Assembly (NCBI RefSeq): GCF_003008615.1
Contig: NZ_CP027657.1
Span: 1 to 64,000, forward strand
DNA length: 64,000 bases
Direction of reading: 5' to 3'
DNA from: Pseudomonas mendocina
GTDB taxonomy: Bacteria > Pseudomonadota > Gammaproteobacteria > Pseudomonadales > Pseudomonadaceae
The position numbers and the translations under genes were made by a program. The notes under the pieces were generated by a model, which made no database searches, was not told where the DNA came from, and saw nothing but the letters and a program-made list of their open reading frames with translations. Shown here one piece after another: positions 8,141 through 44,498 of the stretch (the stretch's first letter is position 1; each line of letters opens with the position of its first letter).

Positions 8141-8177
8141 ACGGCTGCCGCCCCTGCCAAGGTAGCGTCAGCCAGAA

Positions 8178-8205
8178 AAGACAAAGCCCCGCATGGCGGG
8201 GCTCT
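8178..8205 (-). terminator. Second (tandem) intrinsic terminator upstream of the late genes
   Basis: On the leftward strand, AGCCCCGC-CAT-GCGGGGCT is followed by TTGTCTTTT. With the hairpin at 8118-8140 it forms a double stop in the gap between the Q-like gene and the lysis/head genes. The rest of the 8089-8361 gap holds no gene I can support. Confidence 0.75.
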
Positions 8206-8361
8206 GAATCCCGAGTCGGTGGCTCGGGGCGGGTGCGACACAGCATGATCGCTCAGTTGCTCGGTAGGCGTACCTATCGAATCGTGGTGACTTTTTACCC
8301 CCCGAGTGACAAACCGAAAACCCCTATTTATGGGTTATTCCCGCCGACGCTCTTTGGCGCC

Positions 8362-8985: not shown

Positions 8986-9030
8986 CGCCCCGCCTCCCGC
9001 CAAAACCGCAACCCAACACAAAAACCGCCA

Positions 9031-9280
9031 ACCTTACACACACCCAACACACAGAAATCTCAATAAAAACAAAGGCTTTAGAGCGACTGTGTAAGGTGTG
9101 TAAGGTGTGTAAGGTTTTCAGAGCCTCGCGTAAGGAAATTTCCGAAGGGTTTCGGGCAGCCAGATAGCCGATAAGGCGTGCAATTTTTTTTCGCACACGC
9201 GCGCGCACGCGCTTAAACCTTACACACCTTACACACTCGTCCAGAGGCCGCATGGTTACTGGGCTCGCAGTGTGTAAGGT
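9031..9280. repeat. Iteron-like cluster: seven exact TGTGTAAGGT copies
   Basis: Exact copies on the + strand lie at 9088-9097, 9097-9106, 9106-9115 and 9271-9280. Exact reverse-complement copies lie at 9031-9040, 9217-9226 and 9226-9235. The multiple copies are head to tail with a 9-base period. The 348-base gap between the Q-like gene and the replication gene is otherwise empty apart from a T-rich stretch and a GC alternating tract near 9183-9212. The layout resembles an iteron origin for the adjacent replication protein. Confidence 0.75.
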
Positions 9281-9333
9281 TGCGAAATCAAGCCTACACA
9301 GTGCCAACACACCCAACACACTTCTAGGCGCAC

Positions 9334-12114
9334 TCATGCTGCAGCCGCCTTGACGTGATCCCACGCCTCCACATTCCAGCCGCACAGCTTCGCCTTGGCC
9401 CGCCACGCCTGCACATGCGCCCCCAGCGCGGCCGCCTGCATGGATGGTGGCAGGAAGGCTGACTCATCCCTCGGTATCAAAAACGCAGCAAACCGTCGCG
9501 TGCTGCCCTCCGTCCAAGGGATCGCCCGCGTCTTGTCCACGCCCAGCGTTTCAATGAACAGGCTGAACTTCGTCTGGCTCATCCGGTGCTCACCGTTGCG
9601 CTGGCACCACTCCACGAACATCGCGTACAGGTCAGAGCTCAGGCACCCGCCCCACAACCCGTCGCCCAGCTCGCCCAGGCGCCACAGATTGGCGAACGTC
9701 TGCCAGGGTGCACGACTCAACGCTACCAGCCGCTGGCGGGCCGGCGTCTCGGGTGGCTTGGTTTGCTCATCGAAATCCCCCAGGTCATAGCGCAGCAGCC
9801 AGTCGTACAGAGCCTCAACGCCACCGTTGGCCAACTCATGCTTGATCGCCTCCTGACGCTTCGGCGGCAGCTTCTCCTCCGGCCACATCACCAAAAAGCG
9901 CCGGTCGGTATCGCTGATCGGCCAAGGCACGATCTCGTTGGAGAGGAACACCGCGTTCATGTGACTGGCTTCCTCCCAGCCGTTCACGAACTTGCTCTCG
10001 ATGCGCACCGTCTGCCCGGTGATCAACTGCTTGATCTTGCCGACCTGGTTGTACTTCTGATCGCGGCTGACCACCTCCTCGAACACCGCCCACAGCTTGC
10101 CGCTCTGCCAGGCGTTGAACGAACCTTCCAACTGCGTCTGACCGACCGTCGCCGAGTACTGCCCGTAAAGCCGGCCCATCACCACCGAGAACAGCAGGCT
10201 CTTGCCCGAGCCCTCCATCGTCGAATGCATCAGCACCGCGGTGTCCATTTTCGCCCCACTATGCTGCAGCGGGTACGCCAGCCACCGGCTCAACCACTGC
10301 GCCGCGTCCTTGGCGTGGTTGCACAGAAAGCTGATCAGCCAGATCAGGTTCGCGCACTTCGAGTCATCGTGCTCCGGCTTCAGCGGCAAGCCCTCGAACG
10401 TGTTGATGAACACCTCTGGGTCATGGCTCATCGTTGGGTCGAACACAATGTGGTTCATATCCACCACACGCCGATCAGGGCTGTTCAACCAAAGGCTGTA
10501 GGCATCGCCCAGGGCCATCTTGACCGCGCCCTCAGCGACGCGCCGCTTCTTCGCGTAGTCCCACACATCCTTGGTGCCGTCGATGTACACATAGCGCGTC
10601 AGCATCGGCATTTTCAGATCGCCAACCGCCTTGCCCGCCAGCGCCGCTGCGCGCTCAATTTCCTTGACCCAGTCCTCGCTGACAGTCTTCTTGCGCTTCG
10701 GGTCGACCTCGGCGTCCCACTGCTTGAACAGATCCTTGCCCACCAGCGCCTGAAACGCCGCCTTCTTGATGCGCCTGGCGTCATCCACGTCCCAAGCCTG
10801 AGTGGTGCCAACGATCAGCGCGAAGCGCCGGAGCAGCCCCTTGATCGTGAAGCCCCCCCCCGCCCCCCCGTTGGCGCTGCTGCCGGCCGGCGCGTCACCA
10901 TCCGAATCGGTTGGGGCGGGGGGAAGGTCGCCCGGCTCATCGGCCGAGCTGCTGCCTGCATCATCAGCCGCAGGCGCACCACTCGCATCGCCCTTCACCT
11001 TCGGCGGCGTGCCCTGGATATTCTTCTTGCGCTGGCTGGCATGATCGATGCCCAGTGCCTTCGCGGCTGCCCTGGTCGCCGCCTTCTGATCGCCGTCATG
11101 CTCGAGCAGGCAGAACACGTCGAACGCATCGTTCATATGCCCGTTCGCCAGCGGGTCGGCGCCGTGGTGCGAGTACACCTTGCCGTCCACCACCGTCACA
11201 CCCGCCAGCCCTGTGGTGCTGCCCGGGTAGAGCCACTTCTTGCCGCGCCGCTTGTAGCCATGCGCCGCCAGCTGCTGCTCCACGTCGTGCGCCTGGTTGA
11301 ATGCGCCCACCACATCCGTGCTACCGCTTGCGCCAGTAGTCGCCGGCCGGCTCGGCTTCGCCTTGGGTGCTGGGCGCTCTTTCGGTGCCGGCGCCCAATC
11401 ACAGGCACCCTGCCCCAGCGGCTTGAATATCTCCCAGTTGTTCCAGATGCTCAGCAGCTCGCGCGGCAGCTCCGGCAGGCCATCCGCCGAGGGCGGTGTA
11501 CGCCAGAAATACGGCTGGCCCGTGTCCGGGTGGATCGACGGCGGCAATACGTCCTGCACCAGGCCACCGCGCAGCTCGAACACCGTCACCGGCGCCAATT
11601 CCTTCTGTTTCGCCCGCATCGTCGCGGTCAGCTCGGCATTGCCGGTCGCCTCGGCCTGTTTCAGCGCCGCAGTGGCCAGCTTATGCTTGCTGCCGTCCGG
11701 GTCATCGGGGTTGGGCCACACCAGGGAATGCCGGCTCAGCTCCACGCCCTCCGGCACACGGAACATCAGGCGGAAGCGCGCCGGGTTGCCCACCAGCGTC
11801 GGGTACACCGCCGCCAGGTCATCGAGGTTCAGGTCGAGCACATGCAGCAGCACATGCCGCGTGTACTCCACGTGGTCGACGTCTAGCGAGCAAACGCGGC
11901 TCGGCCCGAGCACCACGCCCATGTTGTGGTTGGGGTTCTTCGTCCAGAATTGTTCGGCCTTGTCGGCATCGGTGAAATAGCCACCCGGCTTGTTCCAGCC
12001 GTTGCCCTTCGGCGCCTTCTGGCCGGGCTCGATCTTCACCAGGGCCAGCCCGAAGGCCTCGATATAGCGCCGCGCCCAGGCGGCGATGTTGCTAGGGGTG
12101 TTCGCTTGCGTCAT
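9334..12114 (-). CDS. Phage replication protein: primase-polymerase plus superfamily 3-type helicase
   Basis: 926 residues. The N-terminal 200 are a primase-polymerase (Prim-Pol) domain: GLALVKIEPGQKAPKGNGWN, then MGVVLGPSRVCSLDVDHVE with the expected acidic metal-binding residues. A Pro/Ala/Ser-rich linker (about 380-430) leads to a D5/DUF5906-like helicase with Walker A STMEGSGKSLLFS and Walker B-like LWAVFEEVVS. It should prime and unwind phage DNA at the nearby repeats. The ATG overlaps the upstream stop (ATGA). A C9-G-C7 run at 10853-10869 sits in the linker. Confidence 0.9.
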   Translation of the reverse strand: MTQANTPSNIAAWARRYIEAFGLALVKIEPGQKAPKGNGWNKPGGYFTDADKAEQFWTKNPNHNMGVVLGPSRVCSLDVDHVEYTRHVLLHVLDLNLDDLAAVYPTLVGNPARFRLMFRVPEGVELSRHSLVWPNPDDPDGSKHKLATAALKQAEATGNAELTATMRAKQKELAPVTVFELRGGLVQDVLPPSIHPDTGQPYFWRTPPSADGLPELPRELLSIWNNWEIFKPLGQGACDWAPAPKERPAPKAKPSRPATTGASGSTDVVGAFNQAHDVEQQLAAHGYKRRGKKWLYPGSTTGLAGVTVVDGKVYSHHGADPLANGHMNDAFDVFCLLEHDGDQKAATRAAAKALGIDHASQRKKNIQGTPPKVKGDASGAPAADDAGSSSADEPGDLPPAPTDSDGDAPAGSSANGGAGGGFTIKGLLRRFALIVGTTQAWDVDDARRIKKAAFQALVGKDLFKQWDAEVDPKRKKTVSEDWVKEIERAAALAGKAVGDLKMPMLTRYVYIDGTKDVWDYAKKRRVAEGAVKMALGDAYSLWLNSPDRRVVDMNHIVFDPTMSHDPEVFINTFEGLPLKPEHDDSKCANLIWLISFLCNHAKDAAQWLSRWLAYPLQHSGAKMDTAVLMHSTMEGSGKSLLFSVVMGRLYGQYSATVGQTQLEGSFNAWQSGKLWAVFEEVVSRDQKYNQVGKIKQLITGQTVRIESKFVNGWEEASHMNAVFLSNEIVPWPISDTDRRFLVMWPEEKLPPKRQEAIKHELANGGVEALYDWLLRYDLGDFDEQTKPPETPARQRLVALSRAPWQTFANLWRLGELGDGLWGGCLSSDLYAMFVEWCQRNGEHRMSQTKFSLFIETLGVDKTRAIPWTEGSTRRFAAFLIPRDESAFLPPSMQAAALGAHVQAWRAKAKLCGWNVEAWDHVKAAAA

Positions 12115-12806
12115 GCGCTCTGCTCCACCCGCTTGAACTCGACGACCCACACCCATGGATTTTCCGCCCAGGCGCCCTCGCCGTTAATGCTGTTCCACAG
12201 CCAGGCGAACGCGGTGATCGGTGACTTTGATGTGACCTCGCCTTCTTCGTCGTATCCACAGTGGAAGCGACCGGATGAAGGCGGCGAGATACCCTCGGCC
12301 AGAGCATGCTGCCTGCTGATGTCCTGCAGGCGCTCGACCCGCACGTCGGTAATTTCCAGCAGGATTCGACAGGCTCGGCGCGGCATATGAATCGAAGGGC
12401 GCGTATTGCGAGGGTAGATCCAGTGAGCAACAGAACCGTCGAATGCTGGGTCTTTGCAGCCAGATAGCAGAACCGGAGCCTTGTCAGCACTGTAACGCGA
12501 CAGGATTACCGAGCCGCAAGGTGAAACGGCAGCCTCGGTATTCTCCCGCACCCACAGACGATCACCTGGCTGGCCATACGGGCACTTGAAATCCCAGCCA
12601 TTGCTGGGCACACCATTCAGGTGGCCGTGCTGCGGCCTCCAGTACCAATCAACAGTGGCAGGGCCGTGAGGATAGTTGCGACGAGGGATCGCATCGGTAA
12701 CAGGCACGTCAGGCTGGTGCTTGACCGCACGCCGCGTGACAGTCTTCCGGCCTTCAAGAATGGCGCGCACCATGGCGCCGCTAAACAGAATCGGACGCTC
12801 TTTCAC
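12111..12806 (-). CDS. ASCH-like phage protein
   Basis: 231 residues from a GTG at 12806, fixed by GGAGG 8 bases upstream and a GTGA overlap with the preceding small gene. The start KERPILFSGAMVRAILEGRK and the later CPYGQPGDRLWVREN are hallmarks of a phage family related to ASCH domains, a beta-barrel fold that binds RNA or modified nucleotides; relatives are sometimes labelled morphogenetic protein. The true role is unknown. It overlaps the replication gene, so it is part of the early leftward operon. Confidence 0.7.
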   Translation of the reverse strand: MKERPILFSGAMVRAILEGRKTVTRRAVKHQPDVPVTDAIPRRNYPHGPATVDWYWRPQHGHLNGVPSNGWDFKCPYGQPGDRLWVRENTEAAVSPCGSVILSRYSADKAPVLLSGCKDPAFDGSVAHWIYPRNTRPSIHMPRRACRILLEITDVRVERLQDISRQHALAEGISPPSSGRFHCGYDEEGEVTSKSPITAFAWLWNSINGEGAWAENPWVWVVEFKRVEQSA

Positions 12807-12958
12807 AGCACCGCCCTCCATTCGTTGGCGGCCTGCCAGTAAGCCTGCAGGGCAACCTTGATCCCTTCCCAATCGCGCATCGCATGCAGTTCACGCAGGC
12901 GCTGGGCGGCACGATTCACTTTGGCGCGCAGATGGGCGCGCAGGGCAGGACGGTTCAT
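12803..12958 (-). CDS. Small phage protein, 51 residues
   Basis: A short frame from an ATG at 12958 encodes a basic, helical peptide (MNRPALRAHLRAKVNRAA... ending NEWRAVL). It overlaps the upstream gene by ATGA and the downstream GTG start by GTGA, so it fills the gap exactly, which is the main evidence that it is real. It resembles the small basic proteins often found beside phage replication genes. I recognise no family. Confidence 0.75.
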   Translation of the reverse strand: MNRPALRAHLRAKVNRAAQRLRELHAMRDWEGIKVALQAYWQAANEWRAVL

Positions 12959-13305
12959 GGCTGCTTCTCCTGCTGTTCTTCATCGGTTGCCGGGGTGCCG
13001 CCGAGACTACGGATGGCGACCTCAAGGGCGGCGATCAGGTCGCTCTCTGCCTCTCGGCCGCCAAGCATTATCCCGCCGCCTGGCATAACCACGCCGGATG
13101 CGAAGTACTTGCTGTGCTTGACCCACACGGAACATGCCGGCACCGGATCGCCGCTGCTGTTCGCCATCTCATGCAAATGGCCGTTGAATGAGATATGCCA
13201 ATCATCGTTGACCTGATGCTCCCAGCATCCCGGTAAATCCTTGATCGACTCCTGCCCGCAGAGCGTGGCGAGCTGGCAGCACAGCACAAAAGTTGCGCAG
13301 ATCAT
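12955..13305 (-). CDS. Hypothetical phage protein with Cys-rich N-terminus
   Basis: 116 residues from the ATG at 13305 (GGAGGT upstream; overlaps the zinc-finger stop as ATGA). The N-terminus MICATFVLCCQLATLCGQ is hydrophobic and Cys-rich. Then comes an aromatic segment (GCWEHQVNDDWHISFNGHLHE) and an acidic, Gln/Glu-rich tail. The first 18 residues could be a signal or lipid-anchor segment, but there is no clean cleavage motif. Function unknown. Confidence 0.7.
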   Translation of the reverse strand: MICATFVLCCQLATLCGQESIKDLPGCWEHQVNDDWHISFNGHLHEMANSSGDPVPACSVWVKHSKYFASGVVMPGGGIMLGGREAESDLIAALEVAIRSLGGTPATDEEQQEKQP

Positions 13306-13505
13306 CGCCGCACCTCCATCAACCCCTGGCAGGTCACGCAAAAACGGCAACCCGGCACTGCTTTGCGCCGGGCTTCGGGAATGTCGTCACCACAGCTCTC
13401 GCACTCGGTCGCGCTCTCGCCCTGATACACCACACGGTTGTCGATGGCCTGCTGCAGGCGTTCCTGCTGCGCCGCCTGGGCCATTTCGAATACGCGCTCA
13501 TCCAT
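13302..13505 (-). CDS. TraR/DksA-family zinc-finger protein
   Basis: 67 residues: an N-terminal helix (FEMAQAAQQERLQQAI) and a C4 zinc finger (CESC...CRFCVTC), as in TraR and phage DksA-like proteins. The family binds the RNA polymerase secondary channel and mimics DksA with ppGpp, shifting transcription away from stable-RNA promoters. It overlaps the CII-like gene by 8 bases and the next gene by ATGA. Confidence 0.88.
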   Translation of the reverse strand: MDERVFEMAQAAQQERLQQAIDNRVVYQGESATECESCGDDIPEARRKAVPGCRFCVTCQGLMEVRR

Positions 13506-14007
13506 CGCGGCGATCCTCCCCGGCCAGCATTGCCTGCTCGGCGCCGGCGATGATCCCGAGAATCTTGCGGATCACCGTTTCCCCGTGGTGCCTCAGCGTC
13601 TCCACCTCATGCCGCTGCCAGCGGTTGTCCGCGGCGCCGTCGTGCAGGCTGCCCACGAACTCGCCTTGGCGCTTCATCAGCTTGGCCAGGGCTTTCAAGG
13701 CATCGTTGGTCGCCGTCACCGGTACCGGCTTGAACCACACCGCCCCGGCCGGTCGCATCAGCGCGTCCAGCAGGCGCGGGTCATCAGTCAGACGGATGAT
13801 GTCCTCGAGTTCGTCCGGGCTAGCCCAGCGGCGATCCTCTTTGGGGTTCAGCTTTTTCTGGAGGGTGTCGTACCCCGTGGTGGGCTCCAGCAGCATGTCG
13901 ATGGCCAGGGCGCCAATGCCGCCCCGATAGTCACGCCCAGCGCGGTAAAGCGCGTGGCGCAGGGAGAGAACCGGGCCAGCGCCCGGCAGCAGATCTAGTC
14001 GGCTCAT
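13498..14007 (-). CDS. Phage regulatory protein, CII family (Phage_CP76-like)
   Basis: 169 residues. The N-terminal pattern (SLRHALYRAGRDYRGGIGALAIDM..YDTLQKKLNP) matches the Phage_CP76/CII-like family: a helix-turn-helix followed by an oligomerising helical region (DALKALAKLMKRQGEFVGSL). It lies downstream of cro as in lambda, so it probably promotes repressor synthesis or lysogeny; this is inferred. Its 5' leader carries the hairpin array described below. The ribosome site is GGGGTAAG. Confidence 0.8.
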   Translation of the reverse strand: MSRLDLLPGAGPVLSLRHALYRAGRDYRGGIGALAIDMLLEPTTGYDTLQKKLNPKEDRRWASPDELEDIIRLTDDPRLLDALMRPAGAVWFKPVPVTATNDALKALAKLMKRQGEFVGSLHDGAADNRWQRHEVETLRHHGETVIRKILGIIAGAEQAMLAGEDRRDG

Positions 14008-14019
14008 ACTTACCCCAAG

Positions 14020-14041
14020 CCGGCCCCAGACGGGGCCGGCT
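14020..14041 (-). promoter_or_regulatory. Strong hairpin just upstream of the CII-like gene
   Basis: A 10-bp stem AGCCGGCCCC/GGGGCCGGCT with a 4-base loop sits about 12 bases before the CII-like start codon. No T-run follows, so it is not a standard terminator. It could limit ribosome access or act as a pause site. Confidence 0.5.
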
Positions 14042-14059
14042 GTTGTGTGCTGTGTCTGC

Positions 14060-14332
14060 CGAGCAGGGCAGTCAGAGTTGCCCCGCTCGACCCCGACCGC
14101 ACCAGGGGTCAGAGTCCCCGGCGCGGTTACTACCTAAAACCGCCGTTTAACGACATAGCCAGCCAACCAGGGTTTCCCCTACTATTCCGGCTACGGCGAC
14201 TCGATGCTTCACGTGCTGTGTCGGCATCGAGCGTCGTGCGCCAGTCGAGGTGTCAGAGCCTCGCTGGCACCGGTGCAAGGGGTCAGAGCCTTGCACCACC
14301 CCGCTCGCCTGTGTGTCAGAGCTCAGGCGAGC
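14060..14332 (-). repeat. Array of five hairpins with conserved loop CTCTGAC (leftward RNA)
   Basis: Five consecutive stem-loops in the leader of the CII-like gene have unrelated stems of 9-12 bp but the same loop core. Loop cores (GTCAGAG on +) are at 14071-14077, 14108-14114, 14252-14258, 14282-14288 and 14315-14321. In three stems (65/84, 101/122 and 239/269 after 14000) a pair that is A-C on the + strand becomes a G-U wobble in leftward RNA, so the structure fits the leftward transcript. A sixth hairpin with a TTCG tetraloop follows the cro stop at 14337-14358. The 14008-14366 gap contains no gene. Confidence 0.85.
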
Positions 14333-14366
14333 ACCCGCCGGCCCCTTCGGGGGTCGGCACCTACTC

Positions 14367-14597
14367 TTAAGCAGCTTGCTGATTCGAGCGCAGATAAGCC
14401 CAATCGATGTCAGGGCGCAGAACCTCGCAGGTAACAACCGCACCACTATGGCGGTCGACCTCAATAGCAAGGCCGGCACTCGCCCGCCGGTGGCCGTAGG
14501 CAACCTGCTTCAGCTGCCCAACGGATGTTCCACAACGCTTTGCGAAGGACTCCAGCTGAGCAGCTGTCATGGGTTTGATGTATTGCAGCAGTTCCAT
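14367..14597 (-). CDS. Cro-like protein (YdaS/Cro superfamily)
   Basis: 76 residues beginning MELLQYIKPMTAAQLESFAKRCGTSVGQLKQ, a helix-turn-helix of the YdaS-like Cro group, with GGAGGT correctly spaced. It is transcribed leftward, divergent from the repressor, from a promoter overlapped by an operator. As in lambda it should compete with the repressor and favour lytic growth. Confidence 0.85.
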   Translation of the reverse strand: MELLQYIKPMTAAQLESFAKRCGTSVGQLKQVAYGHRRASAGLAIEVDRHSGAVVTCEVLRPDIDWAYLRSNQQAA

Positions 14598-14618
14598 AGG
14601 CACCTCCTACTGGCCAGC

Positions 14619-14647
14619 AGATTAGCAAGCGCTAACCGCACCCGCAA
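14619..14647 (-). promoter_or_regulatory. Leftward early promoter (P_R-like)
   Basis: On the leftward strand, -35 TTGCGG, a 17-base spacer and -10 TAATCT lie about 22 bases before the cro start. The -10 and spacer are covered by an operator dyad at 14622-14635, so the repressor should block it. Confidence 0.7.
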
Positions 14648-14675
14648 TAGCAAACAGTAATTTACAGTTTGCTAA
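14622..14675. promoter_or_regulatory. Repressor/Cro operator cluster
   Basis: Site 1, TTAGC-AAGC-GCTAA (14622-14635), is a perfect dyad. Site 2, ATAGC-AAAC-AGTAA (14647-14660), and site 3, TTACA-GTTT-GCTAA (14662-14675), are imperfect and face each other, which also makes an 8-bp inverted repeat TAGCAAAC/GTTTGCTA. The centres of sites 1 and 2 are 25 bp apart, the same as on the other side of the repressor gene. Confidence 0.8.
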
Positions 14676-14695
14676 CGGGCTGAAAAGATCGACTT

Positions 14696-15583
14696 ATGGA
14701 CATCTACGAAACCCGCGCCTGGCACCTCAAGAACATCATTGGCCCAAACCAAATCAAGGATTTTGCCAATGCCTTCGATCTTGATGCCTCTTACATATCC
14801 CAGCTTCTCAACAACCACCGCCGCATGGGGGAGCGGGCTGCCGCAACCATTGAAGAGAAAATAGGGCTGGTCAGAGGCACCCTCAGCCTCGATGGCTGGC
14901 CAACTGGCACCTTCATCTACCTGTCTCAAGCCTTCGAAAAGGCCGGGCTGGTGTGGGCTCCACCGGAAAAGAGGTACTACGATCCGGACACCATCACCTA
15001 TATCGAAGAAAGATCGCCCGTGTACCTCGCGCGGGAGCATGCTCGAAGAGAGCTCAGCTTTGATGAACTAGTGAAGGCAGACGAGCAGGAAATCTCCGGT
15101 ACCCGTGAACGGAATGGCACATACAGCGGCCCTCGTGAGCACGCTACGCTATCCCCTGAAATGAAACTGAAGGCAGGCTCAGTCCCAGTTGTAGGCAAGG
15201 CTCTGCTTGGCACGGATGGATATTTTGAAGCCATGGACTATCCAGTTGGAACGGGTGACGGCCGCCTGATGGTGCCGAGCAACGACCCAAATGCCTATGC
15301 ACTCAAGGTCAGCGGGCACAGCATGATGCCCAGAATCAAGAATGGCGAGTTTGTCCTGATCGAGCCCAACCACGGCTATGTGGCGGGCGACGAGGTTCTG
15401 GTCAAGACCTTCGCAGGCCAAGCCATGATTAAAGAGTACATCTATACACGCGACGGCGAGCACCGTTTCGACAGCGTCAATCCTGGCGTTCCGCCGCTCA
15501 TGCTGCCCGTCGAGAGCGTGGAGAAAATCCACTATGTGGCAGGCATCCTGAAGGCCTCAAGGCACATTGTTGACGACCATTAA
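14696..15583 (+). CDS. CI-like phage repressor (S24/LexA-type autoprotease)
   Basis: 295 residues. The N-terminal 60 form a helix-turn-helix (IKDFANAFDLDASYISQLLNN). The C-terminal half is a LexA-like S24 peptidase: substrate loop PVVGKALLGTDG, nucleophile Ser209 in VSGHSMMPRIKNG and general base Lys246 in QAMIKEY. RecA-stimulated self-cleavage would induce the prophage after DNA damage. It is divergent from cro, and its operators lie on both sides. The ribosome site is weak (GAAAAGA), as in leaderless or poorly translated cI genes. Confidence 0.93.
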   Translation: MDIYETRAWHLKNIIGPNQIKDFANAFDLDASYISQLLNNHRRMGERAAATIEEKIGLVRGTLSLDGWPTGTFIYLSQAFEKAGLVWAPPEKRYYDPDTITYIEERSPVYLAREHARRELSFDELVKADEQEISGTRERNGTYSGPREHATLSPEMKLKAGSVPVVGKALLGTDGYFEAMDYPVGTGDGRLMVPSNDPNAYALKVSGHSMMPRIKNGEFVLIEPNHGYVAGDEVLVKTFAGQAMIKEYIYTRDGEHRFDSVNPGVPPLMLPVESVEKIHYVAGILKASRHIVDDH

Positions 15584-15591
15584 ACACAAAA

Positions 15592-15633
15592 GTAGCAAAT
15601 GCTATTGACCAACTGATTAGCTATTGCTAATTT
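15592..15633 (+). promoter_or_regulatory. Rightward early promoter (P_L-like) with two operators
   Basis: -35 TTGACC (15605-15610), a 17-base spacer and -10 TAATTT (15628-15633). Operator dyads GTAGC-AAAT-GCTAT (15592-15605) and TTAGC-TATT-GCTAA (15617-15630) flank and overlap it, with centres 25 bp apart as on the cro side. The predicted start near 15640 puts the CTCTGAC hairpin at the very 5' end of the transcript. Confidence 0.75.
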
Positions 15634-15637
15634 CAGT

Positions 15638-15670
15638 CGCGTACCCACACTCTGACCTCTGGAGTACGCG
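15638..15670 (+). promoter_or_regulatory. CTCTGAC hairpin that covers a ribosome binding site
   Basis: A 7-bp stem CGCGTAC/GTACGCG plus three inner pairs encloses a loop containing CTCTGAC (15650-15656). The 3' arm contains the GGAG (15661-15664) of the gene starting at 15671, so folding would hide the ribosome site. Confidence 0.75.
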
Positions 15671-15925
15671 ATGCAAACGACACAGCACAAGACCGCCCAG
15701 GTGCTTCTGCACCCGGCATGCACCACCAACCCTGCCGCCGTCCGCGCCGTTCAGCAGGCCACTGGCCAACTGATCGTCCTGCGCGGCGGAAAGCCCCAGC
15801 TCGCTCCCGAGCCAAACTTCATCTTCGTCGTCAGCCAGCCCGCCTTCGTGCCCGCTGAAATAGCTGATCGCCGCTTCTTCGTCATCGACGAACTCGACGG
15901 CCTGTTCGGAGGTGACGCAGCATGA
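15671..15925 (+). CDS. Hypothetical early phage protein, 84 residues
   Basis: First gene of the rightward early operon, starting directly after the hairpin that masks its GGAG. The sequence (MQTTQHKTAQVLLHPACTTN... IADRRFFVIDELDGLFGG) has no motif I recognise; it is mostly beta-prone with an acidic C-terminus. First genes of this operon type are often host take-over or anti-repressor proteins, but nothing here shows that. It overlaps the next gene by ATGA. Confidence 0.7.
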   Translation: MQTTQHKTAQVLLHPACTTNPAAVRAVQQATGQLIVLRGGKPQLAPEPNFIFVVSQPAFVPAEIADRRFFVIDELDGLFGGDAA

Positions 15926-16218
15926 GCCGCGACCACATCACCATCGTCTTCCACCACTTCCTGCTGGCACTGGAGCACTCGCTGCGCTCGACGCGCACAG
16001 CGCTGTACGACTTCTCTGTCGAGTCCAACCGCTACCACGCCCTGGGCATGCTCTCGGCCGCCATGAATCTGGAAGCCATCGACTTCAAGCAGTACGAGCG
16101 TCTGGCCGAACTGGTGAACAACGCCGCCGTCCTGCGCCGCGAAGAGCTGATCGGCAAGATGCCGCTGCACAGCCACCGCGCTCTGGTCGTACTCACCAGA
16201 GGGGAGCGCGCAGCATGA
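15922..16218 (+). CDS. Hypothetical phage protein, 98 residues
   Basis: A helical protein beginning MSRDHITIVFHHFLLALEHS, with later FKQYERLAELVNNAAVLRREEL. It overlaps both neighbours by ATGA, so it is translated as part of the early operon. I know no named family; similar small proteins occur in Pseudomonas prophages. Confidence 0.7.
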   Translation: MSRDHITIVFHHFLLALEHSLRSTRTALYDFSVESNRYHALGMLSAAMNLEAIDFKQYERLAELVNNAAVLRREELIGKMPLHSHRALVVLTRGERAA

Positions 16219-16760
16219 CCTACTCCCTCACTCCCCTGTCGCGCGACTACCTGGCCCGGATATTGGCTGATGCCGACGGTAGCCACACAGTGCTGCACCT
16301 TGAGCGAGCCGCCCAAAACATCGCCGCCGCCCTTGTATTCGAGCAAGCCGAAGACAAATTGACGGTGACCATCACCCTGGGCCATCACCGCTCTGAAGTC
16401 CGCCTGCAGTCTGGCGACCCTGCCAACGCTCAGCACCTGCGCGAGCAGATCGAGGCCATCGCCAACGGCACGGCCGACACCGCCGAAACCGGCGCAATCG
16501 GCACACCATCGCCCCCAGCGCGGGAGGACTTCGCCCTCTGTGAAGACGACGAAGCCAGCCTGCGCCACCTGGTGCGCATCGGCGGAACCCGGCATTTGCA
16601 CTGCGGCGCATCGATCACCGTGCACAACGCGCTGCAATCCACGCAGCGGCACGCCTGGGTGACCACGCCGAACGGCACCTCGCCCCTGCAAGCAGGAACG
16701 CCGGGCGAGCTGTACGTCGCCGCCGCCCAGCACATCGAAGCCGCGCTTAACGCAGCCTGA
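16215..16760 (+). CDS. Hypothetical phage protein, 181 residues
   Basis: The start at 16215 (MTYSLTPLSRDYLARIL) is set by an ATGA overlap; a longer in-frame extension to 15912 overlaps the previous gene and is rejected. The protein has two alpha/beta halves joined by an acidic Ala/Thr-rich linker, ending in an Ala-rich helix (GELYVAAAQHIEAAL). Function unknown. Confidence 0.65.
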   Translation: MTYSLTPLSRDYLARILADADGSHTVLHLERAAQNIAAALVFEQAEDKLTVTITLGHHRSEVRLQSGDPANAQHLREQIEAIANGTADTAETGAIGTPSPPAREDFALCEDDEASLRHLVRIGGTRHLHCGASITVHNALQSTQRHAWVTTPNGTSPLQAGTPGELYVAAAQHIEAALNAA

Positions 16761-16770
16761 GGGCCACGCC

Positions 16771-17055
16771 ATGAACCGCACCGTGAAAGAGGCCGCCCAG
16801 GTACTGGGCATCGCCGAGAGCAAGCTGCGCGATCACCTGCGCAGCATCAAAGCCCTGAATCGCGACGGCACCCTGGCAGCCCGCCACATCGGCGGCGGCA
16901 AGCTGTTCATGGACTCGCGCGTCACCACCCCCGAGCGCCTGGGCATCCGCAAGCACTACGCCGTGCTCAAAGTCACCGAGGCCGGCATCGACTGGCTGGC
17001 CAAACAGCTCGGCATCGAGATCAAGGAAATCCCGCAGAAGGACAGCGCCGCATGA
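16771..17055 (+). CDS. KilAC-like (antirepressor C-terminal) domain protein
   Basis: 94 residues matching a free-standing KilAC domain: a helix-turn-helix (TVKEAAQVLGIAESKLRDHLRS) and a C-terminal LKVTEAGIDWLAKQLG. The family forms the DNA-binding half of phage antirepressors such as P1 Ant. There is no N-terminal Bro or AntA domain here, so it may be a small regulator rather than a full antirepressor. Confidence 0.65.
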   Translation: MNRTVKEAAQVLGIAESKLRDHLRSIKALNRDGTLAARHIGGGKLFMDSRVTTPERLGIRKHYAVLKVTEAGIDWLAKQLGIEIKEIPQKDSAA

Positions 17056-17429
17056 ACAAGCCCACCGCCATTACTGACGCCATTGGCGTCGTCAAGCTGG
17101 TCAGCCTGCACCACGCCAACCCGAGCGCTGTGAGCGCCGCCACCGTGCGCGATGCGGCAGAAGAATGCATCGAGCGCCTGCAGGCCATCCCGCCCCTGGC
17201 GCTGGAGCTGGCCGCGCTGTACTGCGCGCTGCTCGCCATCCTGCCGGCCCGCTGGCTGCCTTACGTCACCTGCACCGTCGACACCGAACGCCCGTTCGGC
17301 GCCGTGATCACCGACGAGGCCGGCAACATCGCCGCTACCGGTACCGGCAAGACCGTCGAAGGGCTCGCCACGCTGATCGCCACCAAGCTCGGCCACAACC
17401 CGGCGGGGTGCGGGGAGGTGGTGCGGTGA
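17052..17429 (+). CDS. Hypothetical phage protein, 125 residues
   Basis: Overlaps the KilAC gene by ATGA and the next by GTGA. The central segment is a hydrophobic helix (LALELAALYCALLAILPARWL), followed by a beta-rich C-terminus with the repeated short motif TGTGKT; the motif is not in a P-loop context I trust. Function unknown. Confidence 0.65.
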   Translation: MNKPTAITDAIGVVKLVSLHHANPSAVSAATVRDAAEECIERLQAIPPLALELAALYCALLAILPARWLPYVTCTVDTERPFGAVITDEAGNIAATGTGKTVEGLATLIATKLGHNPAGCGEVVR

Positions 17430-17665
17430 CCACAACGCTCGCCCTGCTGCAGGAGCGCTACAAGGCCACCAGCCTGCCGCTGGAAACCGTGCGCGCCGAC
17501 TACTTCTCCCACATCAAAACCGAGAAGAGCCTGCGCGCCAAGATCCGCAACGGCGAAGTGAAGCTGGCCACCTACAAGAACTCCGATTCGCGTCTGGCGC
17601 CGCTGCACGTGCGCCTGACCGACCTCGCCGCCTACCTCGACGCTCGCGCCGCGGCTGCCGCGTAA
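17426..17665 (+). CDS. PrtN-family (pyocin activator-like) protein, copy 1
   Basis: 79 residues from a GTG at 17426 that overlaps the preceding stop. The pattern YFSHIKTEKSLRAKIRNGEVKLATY...LTDLAAYLDARAA is the PrtN domain, whose founder activates pyocin genes in P. aeruginosa. A second, more typical copy closes the operon at 24541. It probably regulates transcription, but the target is unknown. Confidence 0.75.
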   Translation: MTTTLALLQERYKATSLPLETVRADYFSHIKTEKSLRAKIRNGEVKLATYKNSDSRLAPLHVRLTDLAAYLDARAAAAA

Positions 17666-17728
17666 AGCAGCCGGCACAAAGGGAGGAATGGCAGCCATGT
17701 AAACGCATCGATCCACCTCACCCCACTC

Positions 17729-17764
17729 AAGCCCCGGCGCTGCCGGGGCTTACCGGACTCTGAC
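17729..17764 (+). promoter_or_regulatory. Strong hairpin plus CTCTGAC motif before gene 17787
   Basis: A 10-bp stem AAGCCCCGGC-GCT-GCCGGGGCTT (17729-17751) is followed by CTCTGAC at 17758-17764 between short CGG/CCG arms. The motif ends 22 bases before the next start codon. The local stem round the motif is weak here, so only motif and position match the family. Confidence 0.55.
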
Positions 17765-17786
17765 CCGACAACCCGAGACGCAGCAC

Positions 17787-18128
17787 ATGAGCAAACGACC
17801 CTTCATAGACACCCTGCGCGAGGTCGAGATGGGCGGCCTGCTGGACGAGCTAACCGACGCCCAGCACAGCCTGATCGACCTGATTCGCCTGACCAACAAG
17901 GCCGGCGCCCTGACCATCACCCTCAACTACAAGCCCGAGGGCGCTGGGCAGATCACCGTCAAAGCCGAGGTCAAGGCCAAAGAGCCCAAGCTGGCCCGCG
18001 GTAGCTCCCTGTTCTTCCTCACCCCCGAAGGCAACCTCAGTCGCCGCGATCCACGTCAGCAGCAAATGGATCTGCGCCCTGTGGGCGGGGATGAAAAGCC
18101 TGACGCGCTGCGCCAGGCCGCCGAGTAA
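17787..18128 (+). CDS. Hypothetical phage protein, 113 residues
   Basis: An N-terminal helix (PFIDTLREVEMGGLLDELTDAQHSLIDLIRLT) precedes two beta strands (ALTITLNYKPEGAGQITVKAEVKAKEP) and a polar tail. It is often found just before a DUF2303 gene in prophages, from memory. No function is known. It is preceded by an intergenic CTCTGAC motif rather than a stop/start overlap. Confidence 0.7.
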   Translation: MSKRPFIDTLREVEMGGLLDELTDAQHSLIDLIRLTNKAGALTITLNYKPEGAGQITVKAEVKAKEPKLARGSSLFFLTPEGNLSRRDPRQQQMDLRPVGGDEKPDALRQAAE

Positions 18129-18132
18129 CCCT

Positions 18133-18139
18133 CTCTGAC
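18133..18139 (+). promoter_or_regulatory. CTCTGAC motif before the DUF2303 gene
   Basis: The exact motif lies between the stop at 18128 and the AGGAG (about 18150) of the gene at 18162, again ending 22 bases before the start codon. I see no strong stem here. Confidence 0.45.
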
Positions 18140-18161
18140 AACCGCTCACAGGAGCAACCCG

Positions 18162-18983
18162 ATGAAAGAAGCAATCGACCAACTCTTGGCCCTCGCTCAG
18201 GGCCTCGGCAAACCATTCAACATCGAACAGATCAAGGCACCGTTGGCCCTGGTGCCGCATGGCGTATCCCTCGAAGTGCTGGAGCAGCACCTGCCAGCAC
18301 CGACCCGCACCAAGCAAAGCCTGACGGTACTGGATGCAGCCACCTTCATCGAGTACGTGAAGCGCTACGCTACCGCCGCCACCGTGGTGTTCTGCAACGG
18401 CCCCAACGGCCGCACCTTCCGCGCGGTCATCGACTACCACCAACCCGACCAGCCTGCATGGGGCTCGCACTCGGCTTCCTACGCCTGTCCTCTCACCGTT
18501 GAATGGGGCAACTGGAAGGGGGCAGACCGCAAGCGCATGACCCAGGCCGACTTCGCCGAGTTCATCGAAGACAACGTCAAAGACGTCGTTACCAGCGAGC
18601 AGACCCCTGGCGCACCGACCGCCGCCGAAATGCTGGAGATCAGCCGCACCCTGCAGGCGCAAAAGAACATCACCTTCCGCCAGGGCACCCGCCTCGATAA
18701 CGGCCAGGTGCAACTGACCTACAACGAGGAGATCGATGGGCGCGCAGGCGAGACCGGCCAACTGCGCATCCCTGAGCAGTTCTTCATCGGCGTGAAGCCC
18801 TTCATTGGCGGCGCAGCCTTCTTGGTTGCCGCCCGTTTCCGCTACCGCATCGTCGAAGGCCGCTTGCAGGTCTGGTACGAGCTGGTACGCCCGGACAAGG
18901 TGCTTGAAGAGGCCTACGAGGCAGTCCGCCAGACCATCAGCGAAGGTATCGGCGAAGTGCCGATGTACGAAGCCACCCTGTAA
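18162..18983 (+). CDS. DUF2303-family phage protein
   Basis: 273 residues with features of this uncharacterised family: SLTVLDAATFIEYVKRYATAATVVFCN, then FRAVIDYHQ, a central MTQADFAEFIEDN, and the C-terminal FRYRIVEGRLQVWYELVRPDKVLEEAYE. Members occur in early or recombination regions of temperate phages of proteobacteria. The role is unknown. AGGAG is well placed. Confidence 0.75.
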   Translation: MKEAIDQLLALAQGLGKPFNIEQIKAPLALVPHGVSLEVLEQHLPAPTRTKQSLTVLDAATFIEYVKRYATAATVVFCNGPNGRTFRAVIDYHQPDQPAWGSHSASYACPLTVEWGNWKGADRKRMTQADFAEFIEDNVKDVVTSEQTPGAPTAAEMLEISRTLQAQKNITFRQGTRLDNGQVQLTYNEEIDGRAGETGQLRIPEQFFIGVKPFIGGAAFLVAARFRYRIVEGRLQVWYELVRPDKVLEEAYEAVRQTISEGIGEVPMYEATL

Positions 18984-18997
18984 CCCACCACCACAAA

Positions 18998-19033
18998 GCC
19001 TGCCGCCAGGGACTCTGACCCCTGGCGGCGGGC
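18998..19033 (+). promoter_or_regulatory. 13-bp hairpin with CTCTGAC loop before gene 19053
   Basis: Arms GCCTGCCGCCAGG (18998-19010) and CCTGGCGGCGGGC (19021-19033) pair over 13 bp with one U-G wobble (19001/19030). The wobble is valid only in rightward RNA. The loop is GACTCTGACC. The GGAG of the next gene lies just downstream, outside the stem. Confidence 0.85.
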
Positions 19034-19052
19034 ACCAACGGAGACACAGCAC

Positions 19053-19844
19053 ATGACCGTTTCAATCATCACCCTCGGCGTAATCGCCGCGCTCGTCATC
19101 ATCGCCCTGCTCGGCCTGGCCGCGCTGGCTTACGTCTACGCACAGACTGCCCACAACAACGGCTATGACCAAGGCCTCGACGAAGGCAAGAAGGCTGCCG
19201 CCGACTACACCCGCGACCTCGAAAAGCAGTTAGTCACCACCACCGGCCGCCTGGCCAACGCCCACCTCGAATATGGCGCCCAACTGGAGGACGCCGACCG
19301 CCGCATCGCCATCTATGCCGGCCGGAGCTGGACGCGCGACGACATCACCCTTCTCAAGCGTGGCGCCAAGCAACTCAAGCTCGCCGCCATCACCTACTCC
19401 GAGTTCGAAAAGGCCAACCTGGCTGACCCTGCTCGCTTTGCTCTGGACATCGGCAGCCAACTCGAACAACTGGCCCAGCGCATCGAGCAGCAACTCGACG
19501 GCAAAGCACCCACCGCGATCCTTACTCGTGTCGAGGCTACCCCCACTAGCGATGGCCTACTTGAAGTTGCCCTCGACGCTTTCAACCTCACCAACGGCAA
19601 GAGCTGGCTGGTGCATGGCCCAGAAGGCTGCGGAAAAACCAAGAATGCCCAGGCCATCGCCGCCGCCCTCGGCCTGACTGAGATCGTCGACGATTGGCAA
19701 CCCGGCCAACCGGTACCCGCCACCAAAGCCCTGGTGCTGACCAACCATGAAGGCCCGCACCAGCCTTTCACACGCCGCATCCTCACCTTCGCCCAAGCCA
19801 TGCAATTGGTGGCCCGCCATGCCCAGCGGGGTAACGCAGCATGA
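19053..19844 (+). CDS. Membrane-anchored P-loop protein
   Basis: 263 residues. Residues 5-30 are one hydrophobic span (IITLGVIAALVIIALLGLAA). A charged coiled-coil-like region follows (EGKKAAADYTRDLEKQL... SQLEQLAQRIEQQLDG), then a Walker A, HGPEGCGKTKNAQ, near residue 190, followed by only about 70 residues. ALVLTNHEG could be a Walker B-like strand. The ATPase would be minimal, held at the inner face of the membrane. I do not know a characterised homologue. Confidence 0.7.
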   Translation: MTVSIITLGVIAALVIIALLGLAALAYVYAQTAHNNGYDQGLDEGKKAAADYTRDLEKQLVTTTGRLANAHLEYGAQLEDADRRIAIYAGRSWTRDDITLLKRGAKQLKLAAITYSEFEKANLADPARFALDIGSQLEQLAQRIEQQLDGKAPTAILTRVEATPTSDGLLEVALDAFNLTNGKSWLVHGPEGCGKTKNAQAIAAALGLTEIVDDWQPGQPVPATKALVLTNHEGPHQPFTRRILTFAQAMQLVARHAQRGNAA

Positions 19845-20071
19845 GCACTCACCGCACCTACCCCCTTCGCCGCCTCAGCCCCGAGGCCGGCGGCAAGCTC
19901 GAGCACGATCACCAGCGCACCACCAGCAAGCTGGCTGCGCTGCAGCGTGAACACGCCGAGCTGCAGAACCAGATCCGCACCCAGTACGGCACCGAAGCGC
20001 TCTGGCAACTACGCGAAGCAACCCGCAACGCACTGCTGCTGGCAGATATCAAGCAGGAGGCAGCAGCATGA
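19841..20071 (+). CDS. Small coiled-coil phage protein, 76 residues
   Basis: Overlaps its neighbours by ATGA on both sides. Residues 20-55 form a clear heptad-type helix (HQRTTSKLAALQREHAELQNQIRT). It may pair with the coiled-coil membrane ATPase encoded just before it, by proximity only. No family recognised. Confidence 0.65.
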   Translation: MSTHRTYPLRRLSPEAGGKLEHDHQRTTSKLAALQREHAELQNQIRTQYGTEALWQLREATRNALLLADIKQEAAA

Positions 20072-20769
20072 CCTGGATACTCACCAACAGCGCCCGCGCC
20101 TTCGACCTGCTCAACCCGCGCGCCGAGAACGTCCTCACCACCGATATCGCCCACGCCCTGAGCCTGGTCTGCCGCTTCAACGGCCACTGCGCATGGCACT
20201 ACTCAGTCGCCCAACACAGCCTGCTGGTCGCGTACATCATCGAGAAGGAAGGCGGCACGCCCGAGGAACAACTGGCCGGGCTGCTGCACGACGCCGCCGA
20301 GGCCTATATCAGCGACCTGACTCGCCCGCTCAAACTGCTGCTGATTGAGGCGGCACGGCAGCGGCAAATCGCCTGGATTTACTTTGTAGGCCAGGTCAGC
20401 GCGCAGAGTCATGCGGTCAGCCTCGACGCGGCTGCAACTCGCATCCTCACCACCGCCGAACGCGAAGGCGTCAGCCTGCTGCTGGACACCTACCACCAGA
20501 TCGAGCAGCGCATCTGGCTCGCCATCGCCGAACGCTTCGACCTAGCACCCGAGCTGCCGGAGTGCGTCAAGCACGCCGACATGATCGCCCTGGCCACTGA
20601 GAAGCGCGACCTGCTGCCCGAGCACCCAGCCCCCTGGGAATGCCTCGAAGGCTACGCCCCGCTGCCGGAGCGGATCGGGAAGTACCAGCACGAAGCAGTT
20701 CGCCAGCAGTTCCACGACCGCCTACTGCAGTTGCTCGCCACCACCCACCGCCGGAGGGTAGCAGCATGA
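20068..20769 (+). CDS. HD-domain phosphohydrolase
   Basis: 233 residues with the HD-superfamily metal ligands in order: VAQHSLLVA, LLHDAAEAYISDL and KHADMIALATEKR. This is the arrangement of YfbR-like 5'-nucleotidases, and phage copies are common. It may adjust nucleotide pools during replication; the substrate is inferred from the family. ATGA overlaps at both ends. Confidence 0.85.
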   Translation: MTWILTNSARAFDLLNPRAENVLTTDIAHALSLVCRFNGHCAWHYSVAQHSLLVAYIIEKEGGTPEEQLAGLLHDAAEAYISDLTRPLKLLLIEAARQRQIAWIYFVGQVSAQSHAVSLDAAATRILTTAEREGVSLLLDTYHQIEQRIWLAIAERFDLAPELPECVKHADMIALATEKRDLLPEHPAPWECLEGYAPLPERIGKYQHEAVRQQFHDRLLQLLATTHRRRVAA

Positions 20770-21428
20770 AAATGGCCAAGCCCTCGGCCCGCGATATCGA
20801 GGCCGCAGAAGAACTGCACCAGGTGCTGCAGATGATCGACGCCCGCTTCGGCGGGCCTTTTCAGAACCACGAAGCTGGCGATGACCTGGCCACCCTGCTC
20901 GACAACGGGGACAGCGGCGTCAACGCCTTCGACAGCGATAACGAGCAACACCTGCTGACGCTCTACAACCACCTGGCCCGCCTGCTGCGCAACGCGCCCA
21001 ACTTCTACGGGCGCGTAATCGGCGGCATGTGCTGGGTGATCATGAACGAGGCCAACCAGATCCTCGACCCAGACGCTGACGTCATCGACCTGCACCCGCG
21101 CTTCCAGCAGATGGCAGACCGCCTGAACGCCCTGGAAGCGAAGATCGCCGCCGGCACCCTCCGCGAAGTGCCGGACGGGTACGTGCTGATGCCGCAGGCG
21201 CTGACCGCCGAGAACGGCGCCAAGGGCTTGCTGCTTGGTGAGTTCCATATCGACAGTGAACGCACCTGCGATCAATGCGAAATCGACGAACCCGACGAGA
21301 ACTGCGAGGTGTGTCGCGGCGAGACCGAGTACACGCAGCGAATCCCCGTTCCGTGGGACACGATCAAGGAAATCTACGCCAAGGCGGCAGCAGGCCTGGC
21401 TATTCGCACGGAGGCGCCCCAGCCATGA
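20766..21428 (+). CDS. Hypothetical phage protein with CxxC pairs
   Basis: 220 residues from the ATG at 20766 (ATGA overlap). The middle is helical (LYNHLARLLRNAPNFYGRVIGGMCWVIMNEANQILD in sequence). Near the C-terminus two Cys pairs, CDQC and CEVC, look like a small zinc ribbon. Function unknown; it ends in an ATGA overlap with the broken methyltransferase start. Confidence 0.65.
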   Translation: MKMAKPSARDIEAAEELHQVLQMIDARFGGPFQNHEAGDDLATLLDNGDSGVNAFDSDNEQHLLTLYNHLARLLRNAPNFYGRVIGGMCWVIMNEANQILDPDADVIDLHPRFQQMADRLNALEAKIAAGTLREVPDGYVLMPQALTAENGAKGLLLGEFHIDSERTCDQCEIDEPDENCEVCRGETEYTQRIPVPWDTIKEIYAKAAAGLAIRTEAPQP

Positions 21429-21514
21429 CCGCCACCACCTACCGCATCCACCCACAACCCAGCTTCAACTTCGGCGGCCTGGTCATCGACAACTTCGCCG
21501 GTGGCAGCATGACG
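21425..21514 (+). pseudogene. 5' remnant of a phage cytosine methyltransferase gene
   Basis: The first 29 codons read MTATTYRIHPQPSFNFGG, then LVIDNFAGGS. The last part is the start of motif I (FAGGGGAS in relatives) of phage C5 methyltransferases. Homology stops at about 21510, where GC falls and an opposite-strand gene ends. The ATGA overlap with the gene before shows the start once belonged to this operon. The same frame happens to stay open to 22816, antisense to the inserted genes. Confidence 0.65.
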
Positions 21515-22138
21515 TTAGTAGCGTTCCAGCGAATCGAAGTAGTCGATCAGTTGCTCCTCCTGCGCTCGGAGCAGCTTCGAGTGTTTACGGTACTCCAACG
21601 CAACCGCTTCGAACTCGGGAGTGTAAAGAGCCTTTTTTTCGGCAATTTCCACTGCGTAGATAGCGGCACTTTTGATTGGGAGGACAAACGAGACCATTTC
21701 GTTTCCGAAGACCACCAGGTCAAGGTCAACACAGCTGCGTGTTACACGCGCAAGGGCCAGCATTGCCTCATACCTAGGATTATCACTAGAGAAACTGTAG
21801 GATTTTTCCAGCTTGCCTGCAGCGCTTTCGAAGTGCCCCATCAGATGCTGCGTGAGCGAAAGAACAGCGTTGACACTATCAATGCGGCGACGCCTCTCTT
21901 GCAGCTCCGCCAACTTCATCTCATGCCGCTTCTGCCAGGCCGGCACAGCAATAGCAACGGCCACGGCCAGCAATGCGCCCAGCGCCTGAACCCAACCAGA
22001 CGTATCGGCTGGCAGCCACCCGTGCTTCACCCAGTAAGCGACCGAACCAACCAGCAACCACACCAGGCTGCCCATGGCCAACAGCACGCCAAGGAAAATC
22101 ACAACCCTCTCTATCAACCAATCCTTCTGGCTTCTCAT
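21515..22138 (-). CDS. Two-TM membrane protein of the inserted pair (downstream gene)
   Basis: 207 residues. Two hydrophobic spans (about 10-35 and 45-66) surround GWVQALGALLAVAVAIAVPAWQKRHE; a long cytosolic helical domain follows. The second span matches the paralogue at 22187-22738 (WVQAVGSVAAILAAI). It runs against the early operon, has lower GC than its flanks, and lies in a disrupted gene, all marks of a cargo (moron) gene. Exclusion or defence functions are typical of such genes but not shown here. Confidence 0.7.
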   Translation of the reverse strand: MRSQKDWLIERVVIFLGVLLAMGSLVWLLVGSVAYWVKHGWLPADTSGWVQALGALLAVAVAIAVPAWQKRHEMKLAELQERRRRIDSVNAVLSLTQHLMGHFESAAGKLEKSYSFSSDNPRYEAMLALARVTRSCVDLDLVVFGNEMVSFVLPIKSAAIYAVEIAEKKALYTPEFEAVALEYRKHSKLLRAQEEQLIDYFDSLERY

Positions 22139-22186
22139 GTTGGTCAGCTCAATGTCAGTGACTGTTTTACGGAGCCTAAGTGCACG

Positions 22187-22738: not shown

Positions 22739-22812
22739 CCCTATAACCTCGCCGAACTAGAACATGAGCGGAGCATGCCGGCCCTCTGCCACCATGTCCA
22801 GCAGGTCGCCGC

Positions 22813-22929: not shown

Positions 22930-23055
22930 GCCAGCGCAAGCCCTACAACCACCAGGCACGCCTGGCCACCTACTTCCGGTCGCTACTTCGTAGCAACCAC
23001 GTGGCGGTGCTCGATATCGAGCACCTTGAACTACAGGTGCTCGTCGACTGGAAGC
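22926..23055 (+). repeat. Direct repeat copy 1 flanking the methyltransferase locus
   Basis: About 130 bases, close to 80% identical to 24044-24173. The first 42 bases are identical. The pair brackets the methyltransferase cassette. Confidence 0.85.

Positions 23056-44422: not shown

Positions 44423-44498
<76 letters not shown>

Follow-up and report, generated by a model that had tools for sequence, protein, structure and literature searches.

The nut sites of phage lambda combine a boxB hairpin, which carries a GNRA-like pentaloop, with a GCUCUU-like boxA beside it, and belong with the arginine-rich N protein. The put sites of HK022 are RNA hairpins near the early promoters that need no phage protein and are conserved in structure, and the CI RNA of satellite phage P4 is a phage RNA that pairs with early transcripts through short complements. 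According to the parts of PMC12197685 that deal with them, the c4 antisense RNA of P1/P7 pairs with early transcripts through short complements, probably located in loops, and IsrK, an sRNA of prophage Gifsy-1, is linked to how an antiterminator gene is controlled. The SAS/ESAS of cluster K mycobacteriophages, as treated in the corresponding part of PMC3203893, are a short repeat at translation starts, about half of the copies having an upstream inverted repeat; the consensus of the inverted repeat varies by subcluster, its arms are conserved and the authors doubt that hairpins form. Here we explore a window of 64,000 nucleotides from Pseudomonas mendocina (the whole stretch of DNA that was analysed), in which the early region of a prophage contains a repeated unit for which no description was found in open-licence papers.

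A first-pass annotation of the window had reported an array of five hairpins with a common CTCTGAC loop in the leftward leader between cro and cII, at the place of lambda nutR/tR1. The array is confirmed: on the minus strand from 14008 to 14366 CTCTGAC occurs five times and its reverse complement GTCAGAG not once, and 2000 dinucleotide shuffles of the leader never contained more than one copy (one copy in 82). The fold predicted for the leader has five hairpins with unrelated stems, each with an open loop of 8 nt (xCUCUGAC or CUCUGACx), at a stability of z = -5.9 that was reached by 0 of 100 shuffles. The position is also as proposed: as with lambda-type nut, there are sites in the cro-cII interval and ahead of the gene that opens the opposite operon. 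The features of this region are:

14696 to 15583, plus strand: CI-like S24 repressor
14367 to 14603, minus strand: Cro-like/YdaS-type regulator
14303 to 14332, minus strand: leader hairpin 1, loop CTCTGACA (fold; covariance-model match 14305-14330)
14271 to 14298, minus strand: leader hairpin 2, loop CTCTGACC (fold and covariance-model match)
14239 to 14270, minus strand: leader hairpin 3, loop CTCTGACA, one bulge (fold; covariance-model match 14242-14266, E 0.13)
14200 to 14231, minus strand: hairpin CTCGATGC/GCATCGAG of the predicted leader fold, whose loop displays the linear motif GACACAGCACG (14212-14222)
14096 to 14127, minus strand: leader hairpin 4, loop ACTCTGAC (fold; no covariance-model match at E 0.5)
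14058 to 14091, minus strand: leader hairpin 5, loop ACTCTGAC (fold; no covariance-model match at E 0.5)
14046 to 14056, minus strand: second leader copy of the linear motif, GACACAGCACA
13498 to 14007, minus strand: CII-like regulator (Phage_CP76)

Hairpin 1 has an A.A mismatch near its loop, which is closed by the one pair beside that mismatch, and hairpins 1 and 2 are among the 16 from which the covariance model described below was built. Repeated operator-like words of the type TTAGCN4GCTAA flank the CI-like gene on both sides (14615-14680 and 15590-15635).

Judged from the sequence, the hairpins of the array are half of a larger two-part unit, the second part of which, the linear motif ACACAGCAC, had been missed at first reading. 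It stands some 15-40 nt 3' of the hairpin, and GACACAGCACA or a near copy comes after the units. At genes of the right operon, which begins after the CI-like repressor, the linear motif sits between the Shine-Dalgarno sequence and the ATG; at the gene in the place of lambda N (hereafter the N-position gene) it lies inside the ORF, and the leader copy is not adjacent to the ribosome-binding site of any gene. At some Stutzerimonas-type loci the motif is found in the loop of a T-tailed, terminator-like leader hairpin. The window contains CTCTGAC twelve times: five copies form the array, four lie on the sense strand of the right operon (15650, 17758, 18133 and 19013) and three elsewhere (9631, 14870 and 36034), without an array-type stem. 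The four right-operon copies had been counted with the array, which is justified for 19013, a perfect hairpin, and for 15650, a weaker one with the Shine-Dalgarno sequence inside it, but not for 17758, with a stem of 3 bp, nor for 18133, which has no stem and no linear motif after it. The right-operon features are:

15637 to 15671, plus strand: hairpin at the right-operon start (lambda nutL place), Shine-Dalgarno GGAG at its 3' arm
15671 to 15925, plus strand: N-position gene, 84 aa (phrog_13491), MxxQH...HP...GGAA family
15679 to 15689, plus strand: linear motif GACACAGCACA within the ORF of the 84-aa gene
17754 to 17767, plus strand: weak 3-bp hairpin, loop ACTCTGAC, upstream of gene 17787
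17777 to 17787, plus strand: linear motif with one mismatch (GACGCAGCACA)
18998 to 19033, plus strand: perfect hairpin, loop ACTCTGAC, upstream of gene 19053 (covariance-model match 19004-19027)
19043 to 19053, plus strand: linear motif in the interval between Shine-Dalgarno and ATG of gene 19053

The phrog_204 gene (17787-18128) and the DUF2303 gene (YfdQ-like, 18162-18983) have relatives with units upstream in several phages.

Proteins of the N-position family are 54-86 aa long. In 113 distinct members, found by protein pattern alone, the residue preceding QH is Thr, Ala, Pro, Ser or Lys, encoded by ACA (69), GCA (38), CCA (4), TCA (1) or AAA (1), so that the codon ends in CA in 112 of 113; QH itself is encoded by CAG in all 113 and by CAC in 112. 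In the remainder of these genes the corresponding shares are 4% for ACA (634 Thr codons), 38% for GCA (1048 Ala codons), 71% for CAG (274 Gln codons) and 90% for CAC (192 His codons). Since the codons end in CA despite a varying residue, the motif in this ORF is kept as nucleic acid. In type-A P. aeruginosa phages an extra hairpin with loop TCTCTACC lies within the N-position ORF (6139-6163, minus strand, in locus L001, and orthologues); the residue that matches it is Tyr or Thr, differing by loop type.

Stem pairing was evaluated at 210 distinct module sites picked by sequence only (a loop word followed within 68 nt by CACAGCA). These sites reach a mean stem score of 9.9. Re-dealing their right arms lowers it to 4.97 (200 rounds, sd 0.23), and the mean is 5.76 at 375 other CTCTnAC sites, which still include some array members. 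A set of 16 one-register hairpins had themselves been chosen for pairing (7 or more of 9 pairs); 88.9% of their cells pair, and both sides have changed in 53 cells as compared to 17.4 in shuffles. Covariation in relatives was the test that the first-pass annotation had set for itself; these figures support it, and the stem-score test, which is free of pairing choice, agrees. Searching with a covariance model of the 16 hairpins yielded 45 matches (E no higher than 0.5) from 25 sources, among them some of the model-building hairpins and three (L008, L058 and L062, E 0.32) that are a hairpin with another loop. All 45 are in sense orientation: those before cII share its strand and lie no more than about 450 nt from it, and those of the right operon are on the other strand. 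The G-U pairs that had been taken at first reading as a sign of selection do exceed A-C pairs among 65 non-redundant stems of the window phage and its relatives (83 G.T versus 49 A.C, scored alike), but the bias is modest and not an independent test. Selection at the RNA level on the sense transcripts is nevertheless supported, as is, by the predicted fold and the relatives, a loop that is kept on variable stems.

Relatives were collected by tblastn with the CII protein (10 phage records) and by a related-locus search (19 genomic and 80 viral loci, 80 of 84 being kept). Of 107 loci scanned for leader loops four have too little leader and many repeat another; a share of the remaining leaders, mainly of putida-type and Stutzerimonas-type loci, are without such a loop under the stem threshold. 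The loop cores are CTCTGAC, CTCTCAC, CTCTAC and CTCTAAC. Putida-type phages show a larger loop that reads CTCTCACCACAAG or similar, and CTCACCA or CTTACCA (CTYACCA) in Stutzerimonas-type loci and CTCTATT in L069 fall outside the pattern. The majority loop type of the leader agrees with that of the right operon in 41 of the 41 loci that have both, or 27 of 27 distinct site sets, as compared to a mean of 10.5 and 0 of 10000 label permutations reaching 27, a count in which CTCTAC and CTCTAAC are one type and which, the loci being related, is not a probability. The distinct sets contain 66 leader loops, 64 of them of the majority type, and as many right-operon loops, of which 62 are of that type and 4 of a minority type; L051 has mixed copies below the stem threshold. 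No loop type is confined to a single lineage, and loops differ on orthologous stems that have themselves stayed the same, the N-position leader GCGTACC...GGAGTACGC being an example. As loops shift together within a phage and stems vary, a co-evolving trans-acting reader of the loop is suggested, as a candidate only. Many Pseudomonas relatives also contain a recurring TAGGG...CCCT...GGCTAC hairpin and, just upstream of cII, a second hairpin with the Shine-Dalgarno sequence in its loop (both about 7938-8000 in L002 and equivalents).

The linear motif has a complement on the cII-operon strand, in the intergenic region before the holin genes:

8238 to 8245, minus strand: TGCTGTGT, complement of the linear motif
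8175 to 8206, minus strand: intrinsic terminator with a 7-nt tail, downstream of the complement; 3' end of the putative sRNA

Ten bases (TGCTGTGTCG, 8236-8245, minus) are complementary to CGACACAGCA at 14214-14223 (minus) and 15678-15687 (plus). TGCTGTG followed by a terminator within 140 nt is found in 78 of the 88 loci with at least 6 kb after cII, on the cII-operon strand and 4.2-5.9 kb past the cII start, and in 64 loci the 310 nt surrounding the complement lack the opposite word CACAGCA. Five of the ten loci without seed were viewed: L070 has the heptamer, its terminator having been missed by the rule; L011 has TGTTGTG, by which pairing is retained via G-U; L037 has the mismatch TGCTATG, and in L012 and L033 the seed is lost. 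The last three retain copies of the linear motif although their seed is lost or mismatched. There are 25 distinct seed contexts (27 minus one chance match and one repeat), with differing flanks and often short stems around the seed. An IMG/VR query with the upstream block plus GTGCTGTG, which did not require the early motif, returned at least 120 stretches; among the matches listed, 39 distinct stretches have 6.3 kb upstream, and in 34 of these CACAGCAC occurs on the same strand 3.9-6.3 kb upstream. Among the same listed matches CACAGCAC comes after a CTCT(n)AC word in 33 of 39; the mirror word occurs in 4 of 39.

In swaps of the putative sRNA stretches among 25 representative phages the predicted own duplex was stronger at two kinds of site: leader sites, with a residual of -1.34 kcal/mol (as low in 40 of 2000 permutations), and gene sites, some of them chance copies inside ORFs, with -0.76 kcal/mol (36 of 2000). 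At N-position sites own and swapped pairing were equal (0.02, 1030 of 2000). Covariation at the eighth base is weak: with seed C the motif has G in 51 cases, A in 45 and another base in 3, with seed T it has A in 64, G in 25 and another base in 7, the window's own row being excluded. The stability of the window's putative sRNA stretch is unremarkable (z = -1.0; 29 of 200 shuffles reached it), and a promoter scan, which covered only 9000-24600, found 0 sites where 2.7 were expected by chance. At gathering score Rfam matched only four tRNAs in the whole window and no C4 antisense RNA, and near the candidate RNA it gave matches below threshold only, including IsrK (17.8 bits versus 50). The tRNA matches (44426-44800, minus) appear to be a tandem duplicate of a pair, with pairwise equal scores.

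An intrinsic terminator lies 3' of a seed that is complementary to several mRNAs, an sRNA-like arrangement which we infer to correspond to a putative sRNA. The terminated stretch, whose place resembles the lambda pR'-tR' region, may instead be the 3' untranslated part of the early operon. Upstream of TGCTGTG (about 8420-8260 of the window, minus) twelve loci show recurring blocks, GACCGTTCGTCGG, a T-tailed hairpin-like stretch and GTAAAAAGTCACCACGAT, which possibly concern late-promoter control.

Loop type is not reflected in the sRNA region, which is nearly alike in L019 and L068, so the loop needs another partner. None was found. Two proteins of the early operon deserve mention:

17426 to 17665, plus strand: PrtN-family HTH protein, best single-residue correlate of loop type
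17052 to 17429, plus strand: 125-aa protein (phrog_8889), whose model weakly resembles RNA-binding alpha-beta folds

The PrtN-family protein is encoded in the early operon of most relatives, and a residue in its HIKT[E/D]K motif follows loop type with exceptions: Glu in 12 of 14 G-type, Asp in 99 of 103 C-type and 11 of 11 A-type. The site is the start of the presumed recognition helix, and similar contrasts occur in other proteins. PrtN of pyocin control is a DNA-binding activator according to the relevant part of PMC8609362.

We tentatively favour, at a little less than an even chance, a bipartite post-transcriptional control element of the early mRNAs of a family of Pseudomonas temperate phages, in which a loop factor acts together with sRNA pairing. 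This reading builds on the unit itself, its sense orientation and RNA-level conservation, on loops that agree within each phage and on a complement conserved next to a terminator. A phage-specific factor acting in trans, which is probably a protein, would recognise the loop CUCUnAC, and the linear ACACAGCAC would base-pair with a phage-encoded sRNA (seed UGCUGUG), if made, from the region before the holin genes. Because the two parts bracket the Shine-Dalgarno sequence at right-operon genes and at the N-position gene, pairing would block translation there, and in the cro-cII leader it would alter leader folding and the fate of the transcript. The direction of the effect is likewise conjectural: overall, early genes would be switched off in concert, or silenced in the lysogen, an effect which the loop factor would set or oppose. 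A bolder version, which we regard as possible but doubtful, is an RNA regulon with two keys, in which a phage-typed loop code is read by a co-evolving RNA-binding protein while each unit carries a shared site for the lysis-boundary sRNA; one late or lysogenic RNA would then silence the early transcripts, and loop type would act like an immunity type at the RNA level.

The main rival, which we consider unlikely though by no means negligible, is nut-like antitermination, with the CUCUnAC hairpin as a boxB-like element and ACACAGCAC as a second box on which a phage protein would be loaded for read-through of terminators of the early operons, the UGCUGUG complement being incidental or a feedback. 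It is kept because of the places of the sites, in sense orientation and with phage-typed loops at the nutR (cro-cII) and nutL (first right-operon gene) positions, and the motif in the loop of T-tailed terminator-like hairpins in leaders of several Stutzerimonas-type relatives fits it too. Yet neither leader of the window has a boxA-like word, the linear box comes after the hairpin, and additional sites in the interval from Shine-Dalgarno to start codon are odd for a nut site. No stretch of 10 residues has more than 5 R/K in the 71 N-position entries, a count that includes repeats and one false member, L093. Moreover, when the window, Lodos and LPPA56 were scanned strictly for intrinsic terminators, none turned up within the early operons; each of the three had one ahead of the holin genes, and Lodos had another following cI.

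A translational operator alone, a phage protein on the loop plus ACACAGCAC covering the Shine-Dalgarno sequence with the leader array as titration site, seems improbable. It agrees with the concordant loops and with the way in which the two parts flank the ribosome-binding site of right-operon genes and of the N-position gene, but it leaves the conserved antisense UGCUGUG at the terminator unexplained, and leader copies lie tens of bases or more from the cII start. It is very improbable that a DNA-binding regulator recognises ACACAGCAC and the complementary word as its sites, with the hairpins as by-products of repeats: near the terminator the complement might serve as an inverted DNA site, and the best correlate of loop type is a PrtN-family protein, PrtN being described, in the part of PMC8609362 concerned, as DNA-binding, but the stems vary with compensation while the loop is kept, orientation matches transcription at the sites found and G.T exceeds A.C on the sense strand. 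Hardly credible, finally, are mobile or recombinogenic repeats at gene boundaries of mosaic phages that have no regulatory role; the units do sit between genes and accompany exchangeable genes, but loops change in concert while orthologous stems stay, and the coding copy keeps rare ACA codons.

The pattern CTCTnAC, 10-40 nt, ACACAGCAC, which in this exact form misses Stutzerimonas-type loops, gave 45 matches in 24 of 199 genomes of a genus sample (four being the window's own), against 9 for the control, and in 184 other genomes of a class sample 5 against 9, which is background. A similar pattern found only four prophage sites in the whole own genome (control 0). If our favoured reading is true, a widespread family of Pseudomonas prophages would have in common a post-transcriptional layer made up of an antisense-type sRNA and a phage-specific RNA-loop code. 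The concordance of loops within a phage makes a search for the binding factor and loop swaps directly feasible, and orthogonal pairs of RNA loop and factor would be a useful tool.

Compared with lambda nut, the unit likewise has a conserved, phage-typed loop on variable stems, sites at the nutL and nutR places and a linear box, but it differs by its 8-nt CUCUnAC loop, the lack of boxA, the reverse order and more sites, and, as far as N-position entries show, no arginine-rich N-like protein is present at the N place of this family. HK022 put shares RNA hairpins near early promoters, whereas here stems vary and the loop is phage-typed. Unlike the c4 and P4 CI RNAs, the candidate RNA has several targets, and its locus ahead of the lysis genes is several kb away from these; like IsrK it would be a prophage sRNA tied to early-gene control, although its Rfam match is below threshold. 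With SAS/ESAS the unit shares a short repeat at translation starts and an upstream inverted repeat with a group-specific consensus, but the 13-bp GGGATAGGAGCCC has 0 exact copies in the window and the conserved part there is the repeat arms. While their combination matches none of the systems compared, the parts resemble known kinds, namely nut, antisense RNAs of the c4/P4 type and SAS.
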